This document shows, piece after piece, positions 9,143 to 61,646 of a stretch of DNA of 64,000 bases. Position 1 is the stretch's first letter. The number at the start of each line of letters is the position of its first letter. The stretch lies in contig NZ_CP141266.1 of the NCBI RefSeq assembly GCF_030540775.2, forward strand, positions 2,777,001-2,841,000. Direction: 5' to 3'. Origin of the DNA: Flavivirga abyssicola (GTDB lineage: Bacteria; Bacteroidota; Bacteroidia; Flavobacteriales; Flavobacteriaceae). Both the position numbers and the translations under genes were made by a program. The notes under the pieces are model-generated. The model did not search any database and was not told where the DNA came from. It saw nothing but the letters and a program-made list of their open reading frames with translations.

Positions 9143-12100
9143 TTATTTTTTCATCACTTTTACATTCATTTCTTCAACTTTTTTATTTGATAATACAGAA
9201 GGTGCACCAAATAGTAAATCTTCACTGGTTCCTGTTTTTGGGAACGCCATAACCTCGCGAATGGATGCTTTTTTCTCTAATATCATCATCAATCTATCAA
9301 CACCCCAAGCTATTCCACCGTGTGGTGGTGCTCCATAATGGAAGGATTTATACATCGTACCAACACTTTTAAGCATCTCTTCTTTATTGTACCCCATATT
9401 TTTATAGGTAGCTTCCAGAATTTCAGGTTTGTGAGCACGAACAGAACCACCGCCAATCTCGTAACCATTTAAAATGAGGTCGTATTGCTGTGCAATAATG
9501 TTCCCAATGTCATCTTCTTTGCCATTCATATGCTTATCAATATCATAAATAGCGGGCATTGAGAATGGATTATGAGTGAATGTCCAACGGCCTTCATCTG
9601 TTTTTTCAAACATAGGGAAATCTACTACCCAAGCAGGTCTTAATTCCTTCGGATTGATTAAACGCAGCATACTGCCCAATTCTTGACGTACTGCATCCAA
9701 TGCTTTATTCGCTGTGGCATAGTCTGCAGCAGAGAAAAATACAATGTCACCAATCTGTGCATTGGTTGTTTTAATAATACCAGCTGCAATGTCTTCACCT
9801 AAAAATTTAATGATAGGTGATTGTAAATCGTTTTCGTTAACAATAATATATGCTAAACCACCTAAGCCATGTTGTTGGGCGATAGCTGTTAACTTTTCTA
9901 TTTGCCCTTTGGATAAGCGTTTCTTTCCTTGTTCTTCAGCAGATATTTTAATACACTTTACAATACCACCTTCTTCAATAGGTTTGCTAAATACCTGAAA
10001 GGTCGTGTCTTTTACAATGTCTGTAATATCCTGTAACTGCAAGCCAAAACGTAAATCGGGTCTGTCACAGCCGTATTTATCCATTGCCTCTTTATAGGTA
10101 ATGACTTCAAACGGATGCAAAATCCATTTTTTACCGTATATTTTCTTAACTATATCATTGAACATGTTCGTGTTCAAATCTATAATTTGCTGCATACTGG
10201 CATATGCCATTTCTATATCTAACTGCGTGAATTCTGGTTGACGATCGCCACGGGAATCTTCATCTCTAAAACAACGTGCGATTTGGAAATATTTTTCGTA
10301 ACCACTTACCATCAACATTTGTTTAAATTGTTGAGGTGCTTGTGGCAAGGTATAAAACGCTCCTGCCTGTTTGCGCGTAGGTACTATAAATTCTCTAGCA
10401 CCTTCGTCTGTTCCTGCACTTAAAATAGGTGTTTCAATTTCTAAGAAATCGTGTTCGTCTAAGATATCTCGCATCATTTTAATGACCTTATGACGGTTTA
10501 CAATAACTCTACGAACATCATCATTCCTGTGATCTAAATATTTATATTGAAAACGTGTGGTTTCATTTGTTTTAGTTGCTCTTTTTATTTCGAAAGGAAG
10601 TGTTTTAGAGAGGTTTAAAATCTCTAACTCGTAAGCTTCTAATTCTATTGTTCCAGTTCTTAAAGCCGCGTTGTAATCGTCTTCTTTACGTTGTACAAGT
10701 GTTCCTGTAACTGTTATAACCGATTCTGGTTTTAATTTTACTAGTTCGTCTAAATTAGCAAATGATTCTCTGCTTAAGCGTACTTGAAAAACTTCGTGAC
10801 TAGAATCTCTTAAATCGATAAAAATAAGTTCACCATGATCACGAACACTAGATACCCATCCAGAAAAAGTGACTTTCTCAGAAATATTATCTTCAGAAAT
10901 ATCAGAAACTAAATGTGTTCTGTATTCGTCTTTTATAACGATAGGAATTTCCGGTAATGTTTCTTCCTGTATGTTGGTTGGTTGTTGCTGGTTACTGGTT
11001 GTTGGTTGCTCGTTGGCTGTTTGAGAACTCTGGTTTTCTAACCCTGAGCCTTGCAATTGGTTAAGAATCTCTTCACGAATGACTTTTCCAGAGGCACCTT
11101 TTCCAATAATAGCAATGACTTTACCAACTAAAATACCTGCCTTTCCTTGGTTTCCTCCTTTAATATCGTTAGCAACAGCTTCGTTTTCAGAAATTACTTT
11201 TTTAATAGCCTCCTGAATTTGAGATTCAGAAATCGTATGGTCTTCAAAATATTTATTATAATCGAAATCTCTATCTTTTAGATACGATGTAATGGCATTT
11301 TGAACGAGCACAGACGTTATCTTTTCATCCCTAAACAGTTCGAAAATCTCAATAAGATGTTCAATTCTATGAATATCGGCGTAGTCATCTGCACCAATAT
11401 TATTAACTAATGTTTTTGCAACAAAAGAGGGGTCTTTGAGTTTGTTATTTATAGCGATAAAGGTTTCAGAGCGTAACGAATCCGCTGTAAAAAATTTAGC
11501 GTCTTGTGGTAATACGCCACCTTTAATCAGAATAGATTCAACAGCAAAAGGAAGTGCGCTGGTATCTACCTGAATACCGTCTACAACATCTTTAATCGAA
11601 ACAAAAGGTAAATCTGGTTCTGAAATAAAACGATAATCGGCTTCAAACTCTTTTTTACGCATCGTTTTGGTCTGCTTTAATTCGGCATCCCATAAAACAG
11701 TGGTTTGTTCTGGTCGAAATTCTTTGTGTTCTAAATAATAGTTGAATTGTTTTTCAACTTCTTCCTTTAAAGCTTCTACCATAAACTTAAACGAGTTTAA
11801 GTTTTTTATTTCGGTACGCGGGTTTAGATTATAGCTGTGTTTTTTACGAAGCGATACAGAAACATCCGATTTAAACTCGCCTTTTTCAAGGTTTGCTTCA
11901 GATATTTTTAAATTCTGAACAATACGTTGAATGTATTGTGCATAAGTTGAAGCATCTTCTATGTGACGAATACATGGCTCGGTTACAATTTCAATAAGCG
12001 GCACACCGGCTTTATTAAAATCGACTAACGATACTGTTTTTTCGTGCATTAATTTAGCTGCATCTTCCTCAATATGTACCTGCGTTAAGTTAACGGTAAA

Positions 12101-12481
12101 TTGAGACCCGTCATTTCGGAAACAAGAGACTTGTCCGTCTGGTATAATTGGATTATGAAATTGTGTAATCTGAATATTTTTCGGATTATCCGGATATTCA
12201 TAATGTTTCCTGTCCCAGGAAATGACTTCGTTTTCAAAAGATGATTTTACAGCCTTTCCAAAATAAATGGCTTTGTTGATAGCCTCTTTATTAATAGCAG
12301 GTAATACGCCCATTTGTCCTGTGCAAACAGAGCATATATTTTCGTTTGGTGTTTCTATGTCGCCGTTTGGACAAGCACAAAATAACTTGGTTTTAGTATT
12401 TAATCGAACATGTGTTTCCAGTCCGATAACCAATTCTAACTCGTGGGCTTTTAATGCCGCGTCTAATTGTTCCAGTTCCAT
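9143..12481 (-). CDS. gatB-aspS: GatB-AspRS fusion: amidotransferase subunit B joined to aspartyl-tRNA synthetase
   Basis: A 1112-residue fusion. Residues 1-476 are a full-length GatB: VIGLETHVRLNTKTKLFC, the cysteine pairs of the zinc site, HYEYPDNPKNIQITQ, then the helical tail domain ending at EEILNQL. Residues 477-516 are a Gln/Asn/Thr/Ser-rich linker. Residues 517-1112 are a bacterial-type AspRS with OB-fold anticodon domain, class II motif 1 (FLEIETPILSAGTDEGARE), motif 2 (FRDEDSRGDRQPEFTQLD), an inserted GAD domain and motif 3 (GIAWGVDRLMMIL). AspRS makes Asp-tRNA; GatCAB can amidate Asp on tRNA(Asn). Joining them is a covalent transamidosome-like design. gatA ends one base into this gene's ATG, and gatC lies upstream. 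No frameshift is seen at the joint. Confidence 0.95.
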   Translation of the reverse strand: MELEQLDAALKAHELELVIGLETHVRLNTKTKLFCACPNGDIETPNENICSVCTGQMGVLPAINKEAINKAIYFGKAVKSSFENEVISWDRKHYEYPDNPKNIQITQFHNPIIPDGQVSCFRNDGSQFTVNLTQVHIEEDAAKLMHEKTVSLVDFNKAGVPLIEIVTEPCIRHIEDASTYAQYIQRIVQNLKISEANLEKGEFKSDVSVSLRKKHSYNLNPRTEIKNLNSFKFMVEALKEEVEKQFNYYLEHKEFRPEQTTVLWDAELKQTKTMRKKEFEADYRFISEPDLPFVSIKDVVDGIQVDTSALPFAVESILIKGGVLPQDAKFFTADSLRSETFIAINNKLKDPSFVAKTLVNNIGADDYADIHRIEHLIEIFELFRDEKITSVLVQNAITSYLKDRDFDYNKYFEDHTISESQIQEAIKKVISENEAVANDIKGGNQGKAGILVGKVIAIIGKGASGKVIREEILNQLQGSGLENQSSQTANEQPTTSNQQQPTNIQEETLPEIPIVIKDEYRTHLVSDISEDNISEKVTFSGWVSSVRDHGELIFIDLRDSSHEVFQVRLSRESFANLDELVKLKPESVITVTGTLVQRKEDDYNAALRTGTIELEAYELEILNLSKTLPFEIKRATKTNETTRFQYKYLDHRNDDVRRVIVNRHKVIKMMRDILDEHDFLEIETPILSAGTDEGAREFIVPTRKQAGAFYTLPQAPQQFKQMLMVSGYEKYFQIARCFRDEDSRGDRQPEFTQLDIEMAYASMQQIIDLNTNMFNDIVKKIYGKKWILHPFEVITYKEAMDKYGCDRPDLRFGLQLQDITDIVKDTTFQVFSKPIEEGGIVKCIKISAEEQGKKRLSKGQIEKLTAIAQQHGLGGLAYIIVNENDLQSPIIKFLGEDIAAGIIKTTNAQIGDIVFFSAADYATANKALDAVRQELGSMLRLINPKELRPAWVVDFPMFEKTDEGRWTFTHNPFSMPAIYDIDKHMNGKEDDIGNIIAQQYDLILNGYEIGGGSVRAHKPEILEATYKNMGYNKEEMLKSVGTMYKSFHYGAPPHGGIAWGVDRLMMILEKKASIREVMAFPKTGTSEDLLFGAPSVLSNKKVEEMNVKVMKK
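10973..11014. repeat. 7-base-period array inside the GatB-AspRS linker
   Basis: Read on the coding strand the linker DNA holds six consecutive 7-base units: AACGAGC, AACCAAC, AACCAGT, AACCAGC, AACAACC, AACCAAC. It begins about 40 bases after the codon for the natural GatB C-terminus (residue 476) and encodes the Gln/Asn/Pro/Thr-rich linker. Other 7-base arrays in the window lie just after stop codons. Confidence 0.8.
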
Positions 12482-13881
12482 TATATCGTATCTTTTAAGA
12501 AGTTAGCAAACTTCAAAACGAGTTCGTCATTATTTTTTGCTGCAGTAACCTGTAGCCCTGTTTGGGTGCCTTGAGGTACTGTTAAGGTTGGTAGTTGCCC
12601 CAAGCTAAACCCTACGGTGTAAGCATCAGACAAATACATAGCCAATGGGTCTTTTAAGCTATCTCCAATTTTAGGTGGTGTGCTGGGGGTAACAGGAGAT
12701 AAGATAATATCCACCGCTTCAAAATCCTTTTCAAAATTCTCAGAAATAGCATCTCTTAAAGCTAGACCTTTTAAATAGATCTCATCAGAAAACCCTTGAG
12801 ATAATACTTGATTACCACCAACAATTCTGCGCTTGGTTTCTTCCGAGAATTTCTCAGATCGTGTTATGGCATAAGATTCCTTTAAATCTTTATCATCAAT
12901 ACGGTCACCATAATTAGTACCGTCTAAGCGAGATAAATTAGAAGCTGTTTCAGCCATAGCCAGGGTATAATAAGTAGAAACCAGAATATCAGATTTAAAA
13001 AAATCCAGTTCTTTTACTTGAATACCTTTTGCTTTTATTTTTTCAATCGATGCTAAAAAGTCTTCTTTAATTTGCGCATCAATTGCTTCACTTTCAATAA
13101 AGTTTTTAAAATAACCAACTGTTTTAATATCGTCTGTATTTAAAATACTTGATTCTTCAATAGTTTCAGACGTATAAGTTGTTTGGTCTTTCGTGTCTTT
13201 TCCACTCATTGCATTTAAAACAATACGAATATCTTCCACAGATTTTGCTAAAGGACCAACACAATCTGTTGATGATGCATAAGCCATTAAACCATAACGG
13301 GATATACGTCCGTAAGTTGGTTTTAAACCATATATATTATTATAACCTGCTGGTTGACGTACAGAACCGCCAGTATCCCCTCCAATAGAAAAAATAGTAT
13401 AGTCTTTAGCAACATTTACGGCAGAACCCCCGCTAGAACCACCTCCAACTAATTCTGGATTTACGGCGTTTTTAACCGCTCCAAAAATGGTATTTTCGCT
13501 AGACGATCCATGCCCAAAACTATCACAGTTTTCTTTTACTATAGGTATAGCACCTGCATTTAGTAATTTTTGAATGGCTGTGGCTGTATATGGCGATTTA
13601 TAATTTTTAAGTAGGTCTGAACTTGCAGTTGCATAAGTGCCTTGAAGCATGTACACATCTTTAACGCCAAACGGTATGCCTTCAAGTAAACCAATGGTTT
13701 CTCCATTGGCAATTTTGGCATCCACATTGGCAGCTTTCTCTAAGGCTAACTCAGATAATAAAGCGTTTACCGTATTATGGGTGTTCTCTTTAAGAGCGTT
13801 TAGTTTTTCTTGTATCAAACCGACACAAGATATCTTTTTATCAACCAATTGTTGATGAATTTGTTGTATTTGAGATTCCAT
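12481..13881 (-). CDS. gatA: Glutamyl/aspartyl-tRNA amidotransferase subunit A
   Basis: A 466-residue amidase-signature enzyme that releases ammonia from glutamine and passes it to GatB. The catalytic triad can be placed as K74 (GIPFGVKDVYML), S149 (GGGSSGGSAVNVA) and S173 (IGGDTGGSVRQPA), with the family's exact spacing of 75 and 99 residues from the lysine. The C-terminal part contains DIILSPVTPSTPP. It is second in the operon: three bases separate it from the gatC stop, and its stop TAA overlaps the ATG of gatB/aspS by one base, so subunit synthesis is tightly coupled. Confidence 0.95.
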   Translation of the reverse strand: MESQIQQIHQQLVDKKISCVGLIQEKLNALKENTHNTVNALLSELALEKAANVDAKIANGETIGLLEGIPFGVKDVYMLQGTYATASSDLLKNYKSPYTATAIQKLLNAGAIPIVKENCDSFGHGSSSENTIFGAVKNAVNPELVGGGSSGGSAVNVAKDYTIFSIGGDTGGSVRQPAGYNNIYGLKPTYGRISRYGLMAYASSTDCVGPLAKSVEDIRIVLNAMSGKDTKDQTTYTSETIEESSILNTDDIKTVGYFKNFIESEAIDAQIKEDFLASIEKIKAKGIQVKELDFFKSDILVSTYYTLAMAETASNLSRLDGTNYGDRIDDKDLKESYAITRSEKFSEETKRRIVGGNQVLSQGFSDEIYLKGLALRDAISENFEKDFEAVDIILSPVTPSTPPKIGDSLKDPLAMYLSDAYTVGFSLGQLPTLTVPQGTQTGLQVTAAKNNDELVLKFANFLKDTI

Positions 13882-13884
13882 AAC

Positions 13885-14154
13885 TTATGCATCTATAACT
13901 TTAGAAACTACTAAATATCCAGCTTTCTCTTTAGGGAAATTGTCTTTGATGATTTGTTTTTCCAAAGTGGAACTTTCAACCACGACATCATCCCGTAAAT
14001 TATTTAAAGACACACAATTATTATGATTATTATTAAAGGGATTATTATTTGTAGTTTGTGCATTTTTAATTACGTCAAATAATCTGCTCACGGCCTTAGA
14101 AGGTTGAGCTCCTTTAATACTCGACAATACGTCGACTGTCATAATTTTACTCAT
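13885..14154 (-). CDS. gatC: GatC-like amidotransferase subunit with Asn-rich segment
   Basis: An 89-residue protein. The C-terminal half (NNLRDDVVVESSTLEKQIIK, then NFPKEKAGYLVVSKVI) lines up with the GatC pattern of LREDEV, a short helix and a final VVPKVIE-like strand, which fits its place before gatA. The N-terminal half does not show the usual first helices of GatC. Instead it reads MSKIMTVDVLSSIKGAQPSK, and residues 31-52 hold eleven asparagines in 22 positions (NNNPFNNNHNN). It may be a strongly diverged or rebuilt GatC. The Asn run could slow ribosomes when Asn-tRNA is short, echoing the leader peptide upstream. Family call from context plus C-terminus. Confidence 0.68.
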   Translation of the reverse strand: MSKIMTVDVLSSIKGAQPSKAVSRLFDVIKNAQTTNNNPFNNNHNNCVSLNNLRDDVVVESSTLEKQIIKDNFPKEKAGYLVVSKVIDA

Positions 14155-14174: not shown

Positions 14175-14204
14175 AAAAAAGCCTTCCAAATTTGGAAGGC
14201 TTTA
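14175..14204 (-). terminator. Attenuator terminator of the gatCAB/aspS operon
   Basis: On the minus strand the 20-base palindrome GCCTTCCAAATTTGGAAGGC (14200-14181) is followed by six T, 20 bases before the gatC ATG. Its 5' arm CCTTCCAA (14199-14192) is exactly complementary to TTGGAAGG (14230-14223), which directly follows the leader-peptide stop. That gives mutually exclusive terminator and antiterminator folds. Confidence 0.88.
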
Positions 14205-14232
14205 TATATTTTTAAACAATAACCTTCCAATC

Positions 14233-14280
14233 CTAAAAATTAGGATTATTGAAATTATTATTGTTGTTATTTTTTGTCAT
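14233..14280 (-). CDS. Asn-rich leader peptide upstream of gatCAB/aspS
   Basis: A 15-codon frame, ATG at 14280, TAG at 14235-14233, encoding MTKNNNNNNFNNPNF: nine asparagine codons, six in a row. It starts about 17 bases after a promoter -7 element and ends inside a hairpin (AATCCTAA 14247-14240 with TTAGGATT 14236-14229) that competes with the antiterminator TTGGAAGG. A ribosome stalled on Asn codons would cover the first arm, free the second and let it pair with the terminator arm, giving read-through; a ribosome reaching the stop would cover the second arm and allow termination. This is ribosome-mediated attenuation sensing Asn-tRNA(Asn). Inference from sequence; not tested. Confidence 0.85.
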   Translation of the reverse strand: MTKNNNNNNFNNPNF

Positions 14281-14296
14281 AATACTTTTCTGTTGT

Positions 14297-14304
14297 CAAA
14301 TATA
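14297..14304 (-). promoter_or_regulatory. -7 promoter element for the gat leader
   Basis: TATATTTG on the minus strand matches TAnnTTTG and lies 16 bases before the leader ATG. No clear TTG is present at the -33 distance (the best is TTT). The short leader matches that of the trp operon. Confidence 0.55.
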
Positions 14305-14793: not shown

Positions 14794-14822
14794 AAAAATG
14801 ATGCATTAGCGTCATTTTTTTT
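14794..14822 (+). terminator. Terminator-like hairpin in the gyrB 5' leader
   Basis: AAAAATGATGC, loop ATTA, GCGTCATTTTT (11 pairs, one T-G wobble), with eight T in the tail. It lies between the putative promoter and the gyrB ATG, so it may attenuate gyrB. The 5' arm contains a three-codon frame ATGATGCAT then TAG. It could also be the end of a lost upstream gene. Confidence 0.65.
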
Positions 14823-61472: not shown

Positions 61473-61507
61473 AAAAAAAGGCTTGTCGTGAATGACAAGC
61501 CTTTTTT
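61473..61507 (-). terminator. trp operon attenuator
   Basis: Stem GGCTTGTC / GACAAGCC with six-base loop ATTCAC, seven T on the minus strand, 33 bases before the trpE ATG. TTCACGA (61492-61486, loop plus 3' arm) is complementary to TCGTGAA (61546-61540) at the leader-peptide stop, giving an alternative pairing that breaks the terminator. Confidence 0.88.
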
Positions 61508-61540
61508 GATATTTTGAGTTTTAAATATACTAGGTTTCCT

Positions 61541-61597
61541 TCACGAACGTAAGTTTCTGAAGCTCCACCACCAAGTATTATTTAAAATTGTATTCAT
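61541..61597 (-). CDS. trpL: trp leader peptide with three Trp codons
   Basis: An 18-codon frame encoding MNTILNNTWWWSFRNLRS, TGA stop at 61543-61541. Three consecutive tryptophan codons precede CTTCA (61562-61558), which can pair with TGAAG (61543-61539). A ribosome stalled at the Trp codons covers CTTCA and frees the TCGTGAAG region to pair with TTCACGA in the attenuator, so transcription continues into trpE; with ample Trp-tRNA the ribosome reaches the stop and the terminator forms. Two Asn codons are also present before the Trp run but do not define the sensor. Mechanism inferred from base pairing. Confidence 0.9.
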   Translation of the reverse strand: MNTILNNTWWWSFRNLRS

Positions 61598-61615
61598 TTT
61601 TATTTTTTGTTGGTT

Positions 61616-61646
61616 CAAATATAGAAATGAAAATATAAATACACAA
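61616..61646 (-). promoter_or_regulatory. Promoter of the trp operon
   Basis: On the minus strand TTG (61646-61644), 20 bases, TATATTTG (61623-61616): the full Bacteroidota pattern. The leader ATG follows 18 bases later. Confidence 0.8.

Follow-up and report, generated by a model that had tools for sequence, protein, structure and literature searches.

A probable asparagine-codon attenuator in front of the gatC-gatA-gatB::aspS operon of Flavivirga abyssicola

Background

The stretch of Flavivirga abyssicola DNA analysed here (64,000 nucleotides, hereafter the window) carries on its minus strand a short, Asn-rich reading frame directly upstream of genes for the amidotransferase GatCAB and an aspartyl-tRNA synthetase (AspRS). 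This arrangement raises the question of whether the frame is the leader peptide of a ribosome-mediated attenuator with Asn as its regulatory amino acid and, if so, what the operon under its control is for. In trp, his and phe attenuators, such as those of enterobacteria, a short leader frame rich in codons for the product amino acid and a terminator before the first gene are combined with a mutually exclusive antiterminator, and the stop codon is sited such that a ribosome finishing translation covers an antiterminator arm. All of these features recur at the present locus, which differs from the classical systems in its Asn codons and in having a transamidation operon as its target.

Results and discussion

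The leader upstream of gatC

Every element that an earlier note had described at this locus, from the -7 element to gatC, could be confirmed on the minus strand. The predicted promoter carries the -7 element TATATTTG (14297..14304), a match to TAnnTTTG, which we take to be the Bacteroidota -7 motif; in the alignment of related leaders, T4 and T7 of this element are invariant and T6, T8 and G9 are present in at least 90% of sequences. The leader peptide frame MTKNNNNNNFNNPNF (14233..14280; ATG at 14280, TAG at 14235-14233) has 15 codons, nine of them for Asn. Arm 1 (AACAATAAT, 14257..14265) lies within the Asn codons and has GTTATTGTT (14223-14215) as its pairing partner, and a hairpin formed by AATCCTAA TTT TTAGGATT (14229..14247) encloses the stop codon. 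Arm 2, the antiterminator 5' arm (TTGGAAGG, 14223..14230), is an exact eight-base complement of the 5' arm of an intrinsic terminator, AAAGCCTTCCAAATTTGGAAGGCTTT followed by T (arms 3 and 4; 14178..14203), in which three of the six T of the run pair with the AAA of the stem.

The 141-nucleotide leader stretch folds with a z-score of -5.6, and none of 200 dinucleotide shuffles is equally stable. The 24 nucleotides 3' of the stop codon form ten pairs, G-U included, with the terminator 5' arm, which is matched by none of 200 mononucleotide shuffles; over 49 leaders the longest run of this pairing ranges from 6 to 12 (median 8), and the shuffle fraction has its median at 0.01 and is 0.19 at most. 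MTKNNNNNNFNNPNF is the sole ATG frame of 7-40 codons on both strands of the window with at least eight Asn and an Asn content of at least 50%, and frames equally rich in Asn were absent from 40 windows simulated with a dinucleotide chain. An Asn-codon leader frame, whose translation is predicted, is thus present together with a terminator placed between it and gatC, and the combination exceeds chance expectation.

Conservation among relatives

The earlier note had made its proposal depend on conservation of the Asn run and the arms in related bacteria. Of 80 further loci fetched by their GatB, 50 have the leader, 24 do not and six could not be assessed; conservation of the Asn run and arms therefore stands for 50 of the 74 assessable relatives, but not for the remaining 24, and covariation of the arms is weak, as detailed below. 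The leader-bearing loci come from 11 named genera (Flavivirga, Flaviramulus, Yeosuana, Mariniflexile, Gaetbulibacter, Algibacter, Aestuariibaculum, Hyunsoonleella, Seonamhaeicola, Polaribacter and Snuella). In the family sample the leader is found in the Flavivirga window and 12 of 21 fetched relatives, and with genome G124 the count becomes 14 of 23 assessable operon genomes, the one other operon genome of the 24 (G140) being not assessable for the leader. G124 had been considered as a case of a leader without GatB, which we reject, as it carries the same operon on a contig that ends after gatC.

The covariance model R1, run against 149 family genomes, recovers 14 sites at 90-117 bits, which are the 13 known gatC leaders and that of G124. 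Among the matches listed for these genomes, under stricter filters, none lies between 57 and 90 bits, and the next best, G114 (57 bits, E = 1.7e-7) and G109 (47 bits, E = 1.6e-5), are both plain terminators; the E-values of R1 are hence unreliable for lone hairpins, and a wider regulon is rejected on the same matches. In the fetched loci R1 finds L108, L123, L131 and L139, which with L093 score 84-117 bits. These four finds are absent from every alignment. Of the 50 distinct leaders, 49 entered alignment A2 and the fold model, L093 being left out as its gatC start is called early and its terminator cut; the energy table covers 48, omitting L093 and L067 as pattern misses.

When mapped on a quick tree of 83 fusion proteins, presence of the leader requires 15 changes (at least nine, judged by starred branches), compared with a mean of 24.2 for shuffles, none of 500 of which is as low as 15. 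The gene gyrB is found in 49 loci with the leader and in 24 without it (counts that include duplicates; L125 and L128, among the 24, are not assessable), and a gyrB neighbour is often common to both kinds of locus. We therefore reject loss of the leader through relocation. The pattern suggests that the leader was lost repeatedly in place; the tree by itself, though, cannot separate gain from loss. Since 24 of the 74 relatives keep the same operon without a leader, the proposed control is dispensable. In nine leaderless loci (L040, L041, L046, L050, L053, L054, L056, L057 and L058) we note a common stretch resembling AACTTTYGTAATTTT just before gatC, which is probably another promoter.

Pairing of the arms

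Conservation of the leader extends to individual codons. In A2 the TAG stop codon is invariant (49 of 49 leaders), and AAT is found in all 49 at three positions, namely three codons before the Phe codon, directly before it and directly after it. The other Asn positions tolerate AAC, Arg, Ser, Ile, Thr or Lys, while the Phe codon itself is TTC or TTT, and the Pro codon CCT, in 48 of 49 leaders each. The structure composed of the arm 1:arm 2 helix, the stop-codon hairpin and the terminator is paired in 96.3% of alignment cells, and its covariation (0.094 as against 0.082 in shuffles) lies above all 500 shuffles, mostly on account of terminator pairs. The arm 1 helix is paired in 98.4% of cells with no pair changed on both sides, and the stop-codon hairpin in 94.6%, L116 alone showing a C-G to U-A replacement. 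As this replacement changes Pro to Ser, it is the RNA pairing and not the peptide that is kept in this leader.

For the antiterminator structure, 89.8% of cells are paired, a value reached by 10 of 500 shuffles, and its covariation score is attained by 69 of 500. The outermost two pairs are broken in 25 and 33 of the 49 leaders, and each pair of the eight-pair core is present in at least 46. Such near-invariance of the core is expected, because GGAAGG must fit two partners, and for this reason covariation neither proves nor refutes the antiterminator. In all 48 leaders scored, the terminator (mean -16.5 kcal/mol) has a competing antiterminator (mean -14.3 kcal/mol).

Fold model and proposed mechanism

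To follow the competition between the two structures, we modelled a ribosome with an assumed footprint from 15 nucleotides before to 14 nucleotides after the start of the A-site codon, and folded the nascent RNA as far as the loop of the terminator. With the ribosome stalled at any of the first eight Asn positions, the predicted antiterminator probability averages 0.93-0.94 and exceeds 0.5 in 46 of 49 leaders; it falls to 0.37 at the ninth Asn and to 0.00 with the ribosome on the stop codon. In the model, this dependence on stall position is the geometry of an attenuator. Without a ribosome the antiterminator probability is 0.89, although arm 1 pairing is possible in the leaders scored; a protector role of arm 1, or basal termination through a 1:2 hairpin, is therefore not supported by the model. 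The full-length RNA at equilibrium favours the terminator (mean 0.89-1.00), so switching would have to be kinetic.

Taking these observations together, we consider it probable that a ribosome-mediated attenuator of the trp/his type, with Asn as its regulatory amino acid, controls an operon for tRNA-dependent asparagine biosynthesis. The earlier note's proposal of an Asn attenuator is thereby strengthened by the conserved leader, terminator and competing arm. The leader, arms, terminator, conservation, gene fusion and gene inventory on which this reading is based are all read from sequence, and stalling of the ribosome, switching between the structures, non-discriminating charging by the AspRS and the absence of any other route to asparagine are what we infer from them. 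RNA polymerase would initiate just upstream of the 15-codon leader. With ample Asn-tRNA(Asn), the ribosome would reach TAG and mask GGAAGG, allowing the terminator to form before gatC. With Asn-tRNA(Asn) scarce, the ribosome would pause on one of the first eight Asn codons, whereupon GGAAGG could pair with the terminator 5' arm and transcription would read through into gatC-gatA-gatB::aspS. The fused AspRS would then load Asp onto tRNA(Asn) for amidation by GatCAB to Asn-tRNA(Asn), transamidation being the cell's presumed route to asparagine besides the asparaginyl-tRNA synthetase (AsnRS).

The operon and the GatB-AspRS fusion

The operon opens with gatC (13885..14154, minus strand; 89 residues), a borderline assignment (PF02686 at 22.1 bits, under the cut-off of 23) made with the help of its position before gatA. 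It continues with gatA, the amidase subunit (12481..13881, minus strand; 466 residues; PF01425, 374 bits), and ends with a single 1112-residue frame (9143..12481, minus strand) that carries GatB_N, GatB_Yqey, an OB fold, a class II core and a GAD domain. The gene order gatC-gatA-gatB/aspS proposed earlier thus holds, but gatB and aspS are not separate genes, GatB and AspRS forming one protein. The fusion is found in 23 of the 149 family genomes, in addition to G124 with its leader and gatC at the contig end, and unfused GatB is absent among the matches listed for these 149. In an order-level sample of 395 genomes, the ten matches at E <= 1e-100 are all from Flavobacteriaceae and all fused (frames of 1116-1136). 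In a phylum-level sample of 395 genomes, 314 have a GatB match; among the matches listed, three are fused (the Flavivirga genome, G297 and G344, all Flavobacteriaceae) and the others are frames of 476-621 residues with about 31-43% identity. We note that, among the matches listed for the samples searched, the GatB-AspRS fusion is restricted to Flavobacteriaceae. It may represent a covalent transamidosome.

The fused AspRS scores about 447 bits in each of two alignments, one with the Pseudomonas aeruginosa tRNA(Asp/Asn) enzyme (PDB identifier 4wj3), the other with that of Thermus (1efw). The x of its RDxG motif (RDHG) is His in all 101 full-length loci, counted from 103 loci that include some genomes fetched twice; this residue is His in 4wj3, Leu in 1efw and Lys in the standalone AspRS that the Flavivirga genome has as its second AspRS. 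We take His31 and Gly82 to be the marks of the P. aeruginosa Asp/Asn enzyme, and at the Gly82 position the fused AspRS has Asp. The His suggests non-discriminating charging by the fused enzyme, and the Asp counts against it.

The operon as a probable route to asparagine

A search of the genome for asnS, which the earlier note had proposed, retrieved an AsnRS at 600.6 bits, above the curated cut-off, along with GlnRS at 711.8 bits, and both enzymes are above their cut-offs in all 24 operon genomes. AsnRS being present, the cell has a source of Asn-tRNA other than the operon, contrary to what that note had implied, and we reject this role. GlnRS in all 24 genomes lends support to its other suggestion, that this GatCAB serves tRNA(Asn). 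AsnA is found neither in the Flavivirga genome nor in any of the 24 operon genomes. PF00733 and TIGR01536 profile searches of the Flavivirga genome found no convincing AsnB, returning, respectively, a single partial match of 21.3 bits (cut-off 21) in a 406-codon frame and a best score of 60 bits (cut-off 267). As AsnA is absent and AsnB unconvincing, the operon is better read as one for asparagine biosynthesis, probably by conversion of Asp-tRNA(Asn) to Asn-tRNA(Asn).

TIGR01536 is absent above its cut-off from 14 of the 23 operon genomes searched (G124 lay outside this search), and in the nine with a match the proteins are of 572-642 residues, the 560-residue split-match type of the comparison genome G101 being found in none of the nine. 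PF00733 at E < 1e-40, tallied by hand from match lists, occurs in 10 of 24 operon genomes as against 115 of 125 others (Fisher p = 1.1e-7), a scarcity that speaks for the operon as the asparagine route. The AsnB-like genes of these ten genomes count against the operon being the only route to asparagine, as it would be in Flavivirga. We considered them as asparagine suppliers and reject this, as all eight neighbours scanned, in four of the ten genomes, are polysaccharide or sugar genes.

The tRNA(Asn) and tRNA(Asp) genes agree with a role of GatCAB in asparagine synthesis. Of 36 tRNA matches, 30 were fetched: both tRNA(Asn) genes found, read by eye, have U1-A72, and tRNA(Asp) has G1-C72. Bacterial GatCAB requires U1-A72, according to PMC4206432. 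The U1-A72 pair is also present in tRNA(Gln), which counts against this argument. With somewhat less confidence than for the attenuator itself, we favour the view that these bacteria make asparagine with a covalent transamidosome, GatB joined to a non-discriminating AspRS, and that this enzyme is placed under an attenuator sensing the charging of tRNA(Asn). The tRNA(Asn) would then be both substrate and product carrier of the fused enzyme, and the enzyme would be induced by the uncharged (possibly also misacylated Asp-) tRNA(Asn) that it uses up, with AsnRS competing for this tRNA.

Alternative explanations

The peptide rather than its codons might be the sensor, with nascent FNNPN causing a stall that depends on free asparagine, or on some other small molecule, instead of on Asn-tRNA charging. 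Such arrest peptides exist, TnaC responding to tryptophan, and FNNP is conserved through the near-invariant Phe and CCT codons. The same bases also serve pairing, though (TTTC with GGAA, CCTAA with TTAGG), and L116, by its Pro to Ser change, and L115, with Phe changed to Ser, alter the peptide and keep most of the pairing. An arrest peptide is very unlikely given, furthermore, that the Asn stretch accepts Arg, Ser, Ile and Thr and that a run of Asn codons is what a charging sensor is expected to have. No greater probability is assigned to an absence of regulation, in which a conserved terminator and a low-complexity frame happen to precede gatC: the region is AT-rich, 24 of the 74 relatives do without the leader, and the best two model matches examined below 84 bits are plain terminators. 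Against this, the frame is conserved at base level down to its stop codon, promoter, frame, arm and terminator are retained jointly in the 11 genera, and a terminator directly before the first gene of an operon makes sense only with control of read-through.

The remaining two alternatives keep the regulation and alter either what the operon supplies or how the leader senses. If the same attenuator controlled the route to Asn-tRNA(Asn) of a cell devoid of AsnRS, the sequence evidence for the attenuator would be identical, but AsnRS is above cut-off here and in all 24 operon genomes, which makes this version highly improbable. A leader RNA that senses tRNA directly in the manner of a T-box, or an attenuator that binds a protein, could be imagined by analogy with Clostridium acetobutylicum, where the equivalent pathway is reported to be under T-box control. 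There is, however, no Rfam T-box match in the window, nor at the site with a permissive threshold, and a leader of about 100 nucleotides, most of it the short frame, leaves little room for such a structure. We regard this last alternative as extremely improbable. No Rfam family exceeds its gathering score at the site, the best being Phe_leader (RF01859; 35.5 bits against 55), and a T-box or other known Rfam leader is accordingly rejected there.

Comparison with known systems

The translated Asn attenuator that we favour would make use of a device already present in this group of bacteria, as transcriptome data are reported to show leader-peptide attenuation in front of amino acid operons in Flavobacterium psychrophilum (PMC9723704) and as a Bacteroid-trp leader is found in the window. 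The latter (RF01692, 62 bits against a gathering score of 49) is at 61494-61617 on the minus strand; it is the sole match to this family in the window, the gatC leader giving none.

The closest functional analogue is clostridial. Work by Saad in 2012 and 2013 is said to have described T-box control of transamidation in C. acetobutylicum, where routes to Asn are redundant. In both cases the supply of Asn-tRNA would control the genes for AspRS and GatCAB, though the T-box leader RNA binds tRNA directly, whereas here a translated frame of Asn codons would act as the sensor.

The pathway itself has counterparts in Deinococcus, Thermus and Bdellovibrio, for which tRNA-dependent asparagine biosynthesis is described beside AsnRS and GlnRS and in the lack of an Asn synthetase; the available part of that account (PMC4206432) also refers to some members of the Bacteroidetes and mentions neither fusion nor attenuator. 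The Flavivirga route has GatCAB, AsnRS, GlnRS, a U1-A72 tRNA(Asn) and no recognised Asn synthetase in common with these bacteria, and a second AspRS in common with Deinococcus and Thermus. In the latter two the second AspRS is archaeal-type, in contrast to the bacterial-type enzyme with a GAD domain that is covalently fused to GatB here. In transamidosomes of known structure (Thermus, PDB identifier 3kfu; P. aeruginosa, 4wj3 and 4wj4), AspRS and GatCAB cooperate on tRNA(Asn), as we predict for the present enzymes, and the fused AspRS and chain M of 4wj3 can be aligned over their full length (447 bits). The transamidosomes differ in that AspRS and GatB are one polypeptide here.

Neither an Asn attenuator nor a GatB-AspRS fusion was found in the literature searched, subscription papers lying mostly outside it. 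Three things not seen together in that literature would thus meet at this locus, namely a translated attenuator specific for Asn, the GatB-AspRS fusion, and the lack of a standard Asn synthetase beside AsnRS. If correct, the proposal would make this the first ribosome-mediated attenuator specific for asparagine. It would be a counterpart to the T-box solution of Clostridia, with Bacteroidota and Clostridia using distinct RNA devices for one control problem. Transamidation beside AsnRS, an odd redundancy in Flavobacteriaceae, would then be the pathway of asparagine supply.

Further observations in the window

Within GatC (13885-14154, minus strand) we observe an Asn-rich stretch, NNNPFNNNHNN, that resembles the leader peptide. 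Over 91 loci, leaderless ones included, GatC has a median of 12 Asn among its 89 residues (range 7-15). The stretch may serve as a second sensor or a flexible linker, or it may be the source of the leader. On the opposite strand, a terminator-like hairpin with a T run (14794-14819, plus strand) precedes the gyrB start (14853) by about 34 bases; it is possibly an attenuator or the end of a short transcript.
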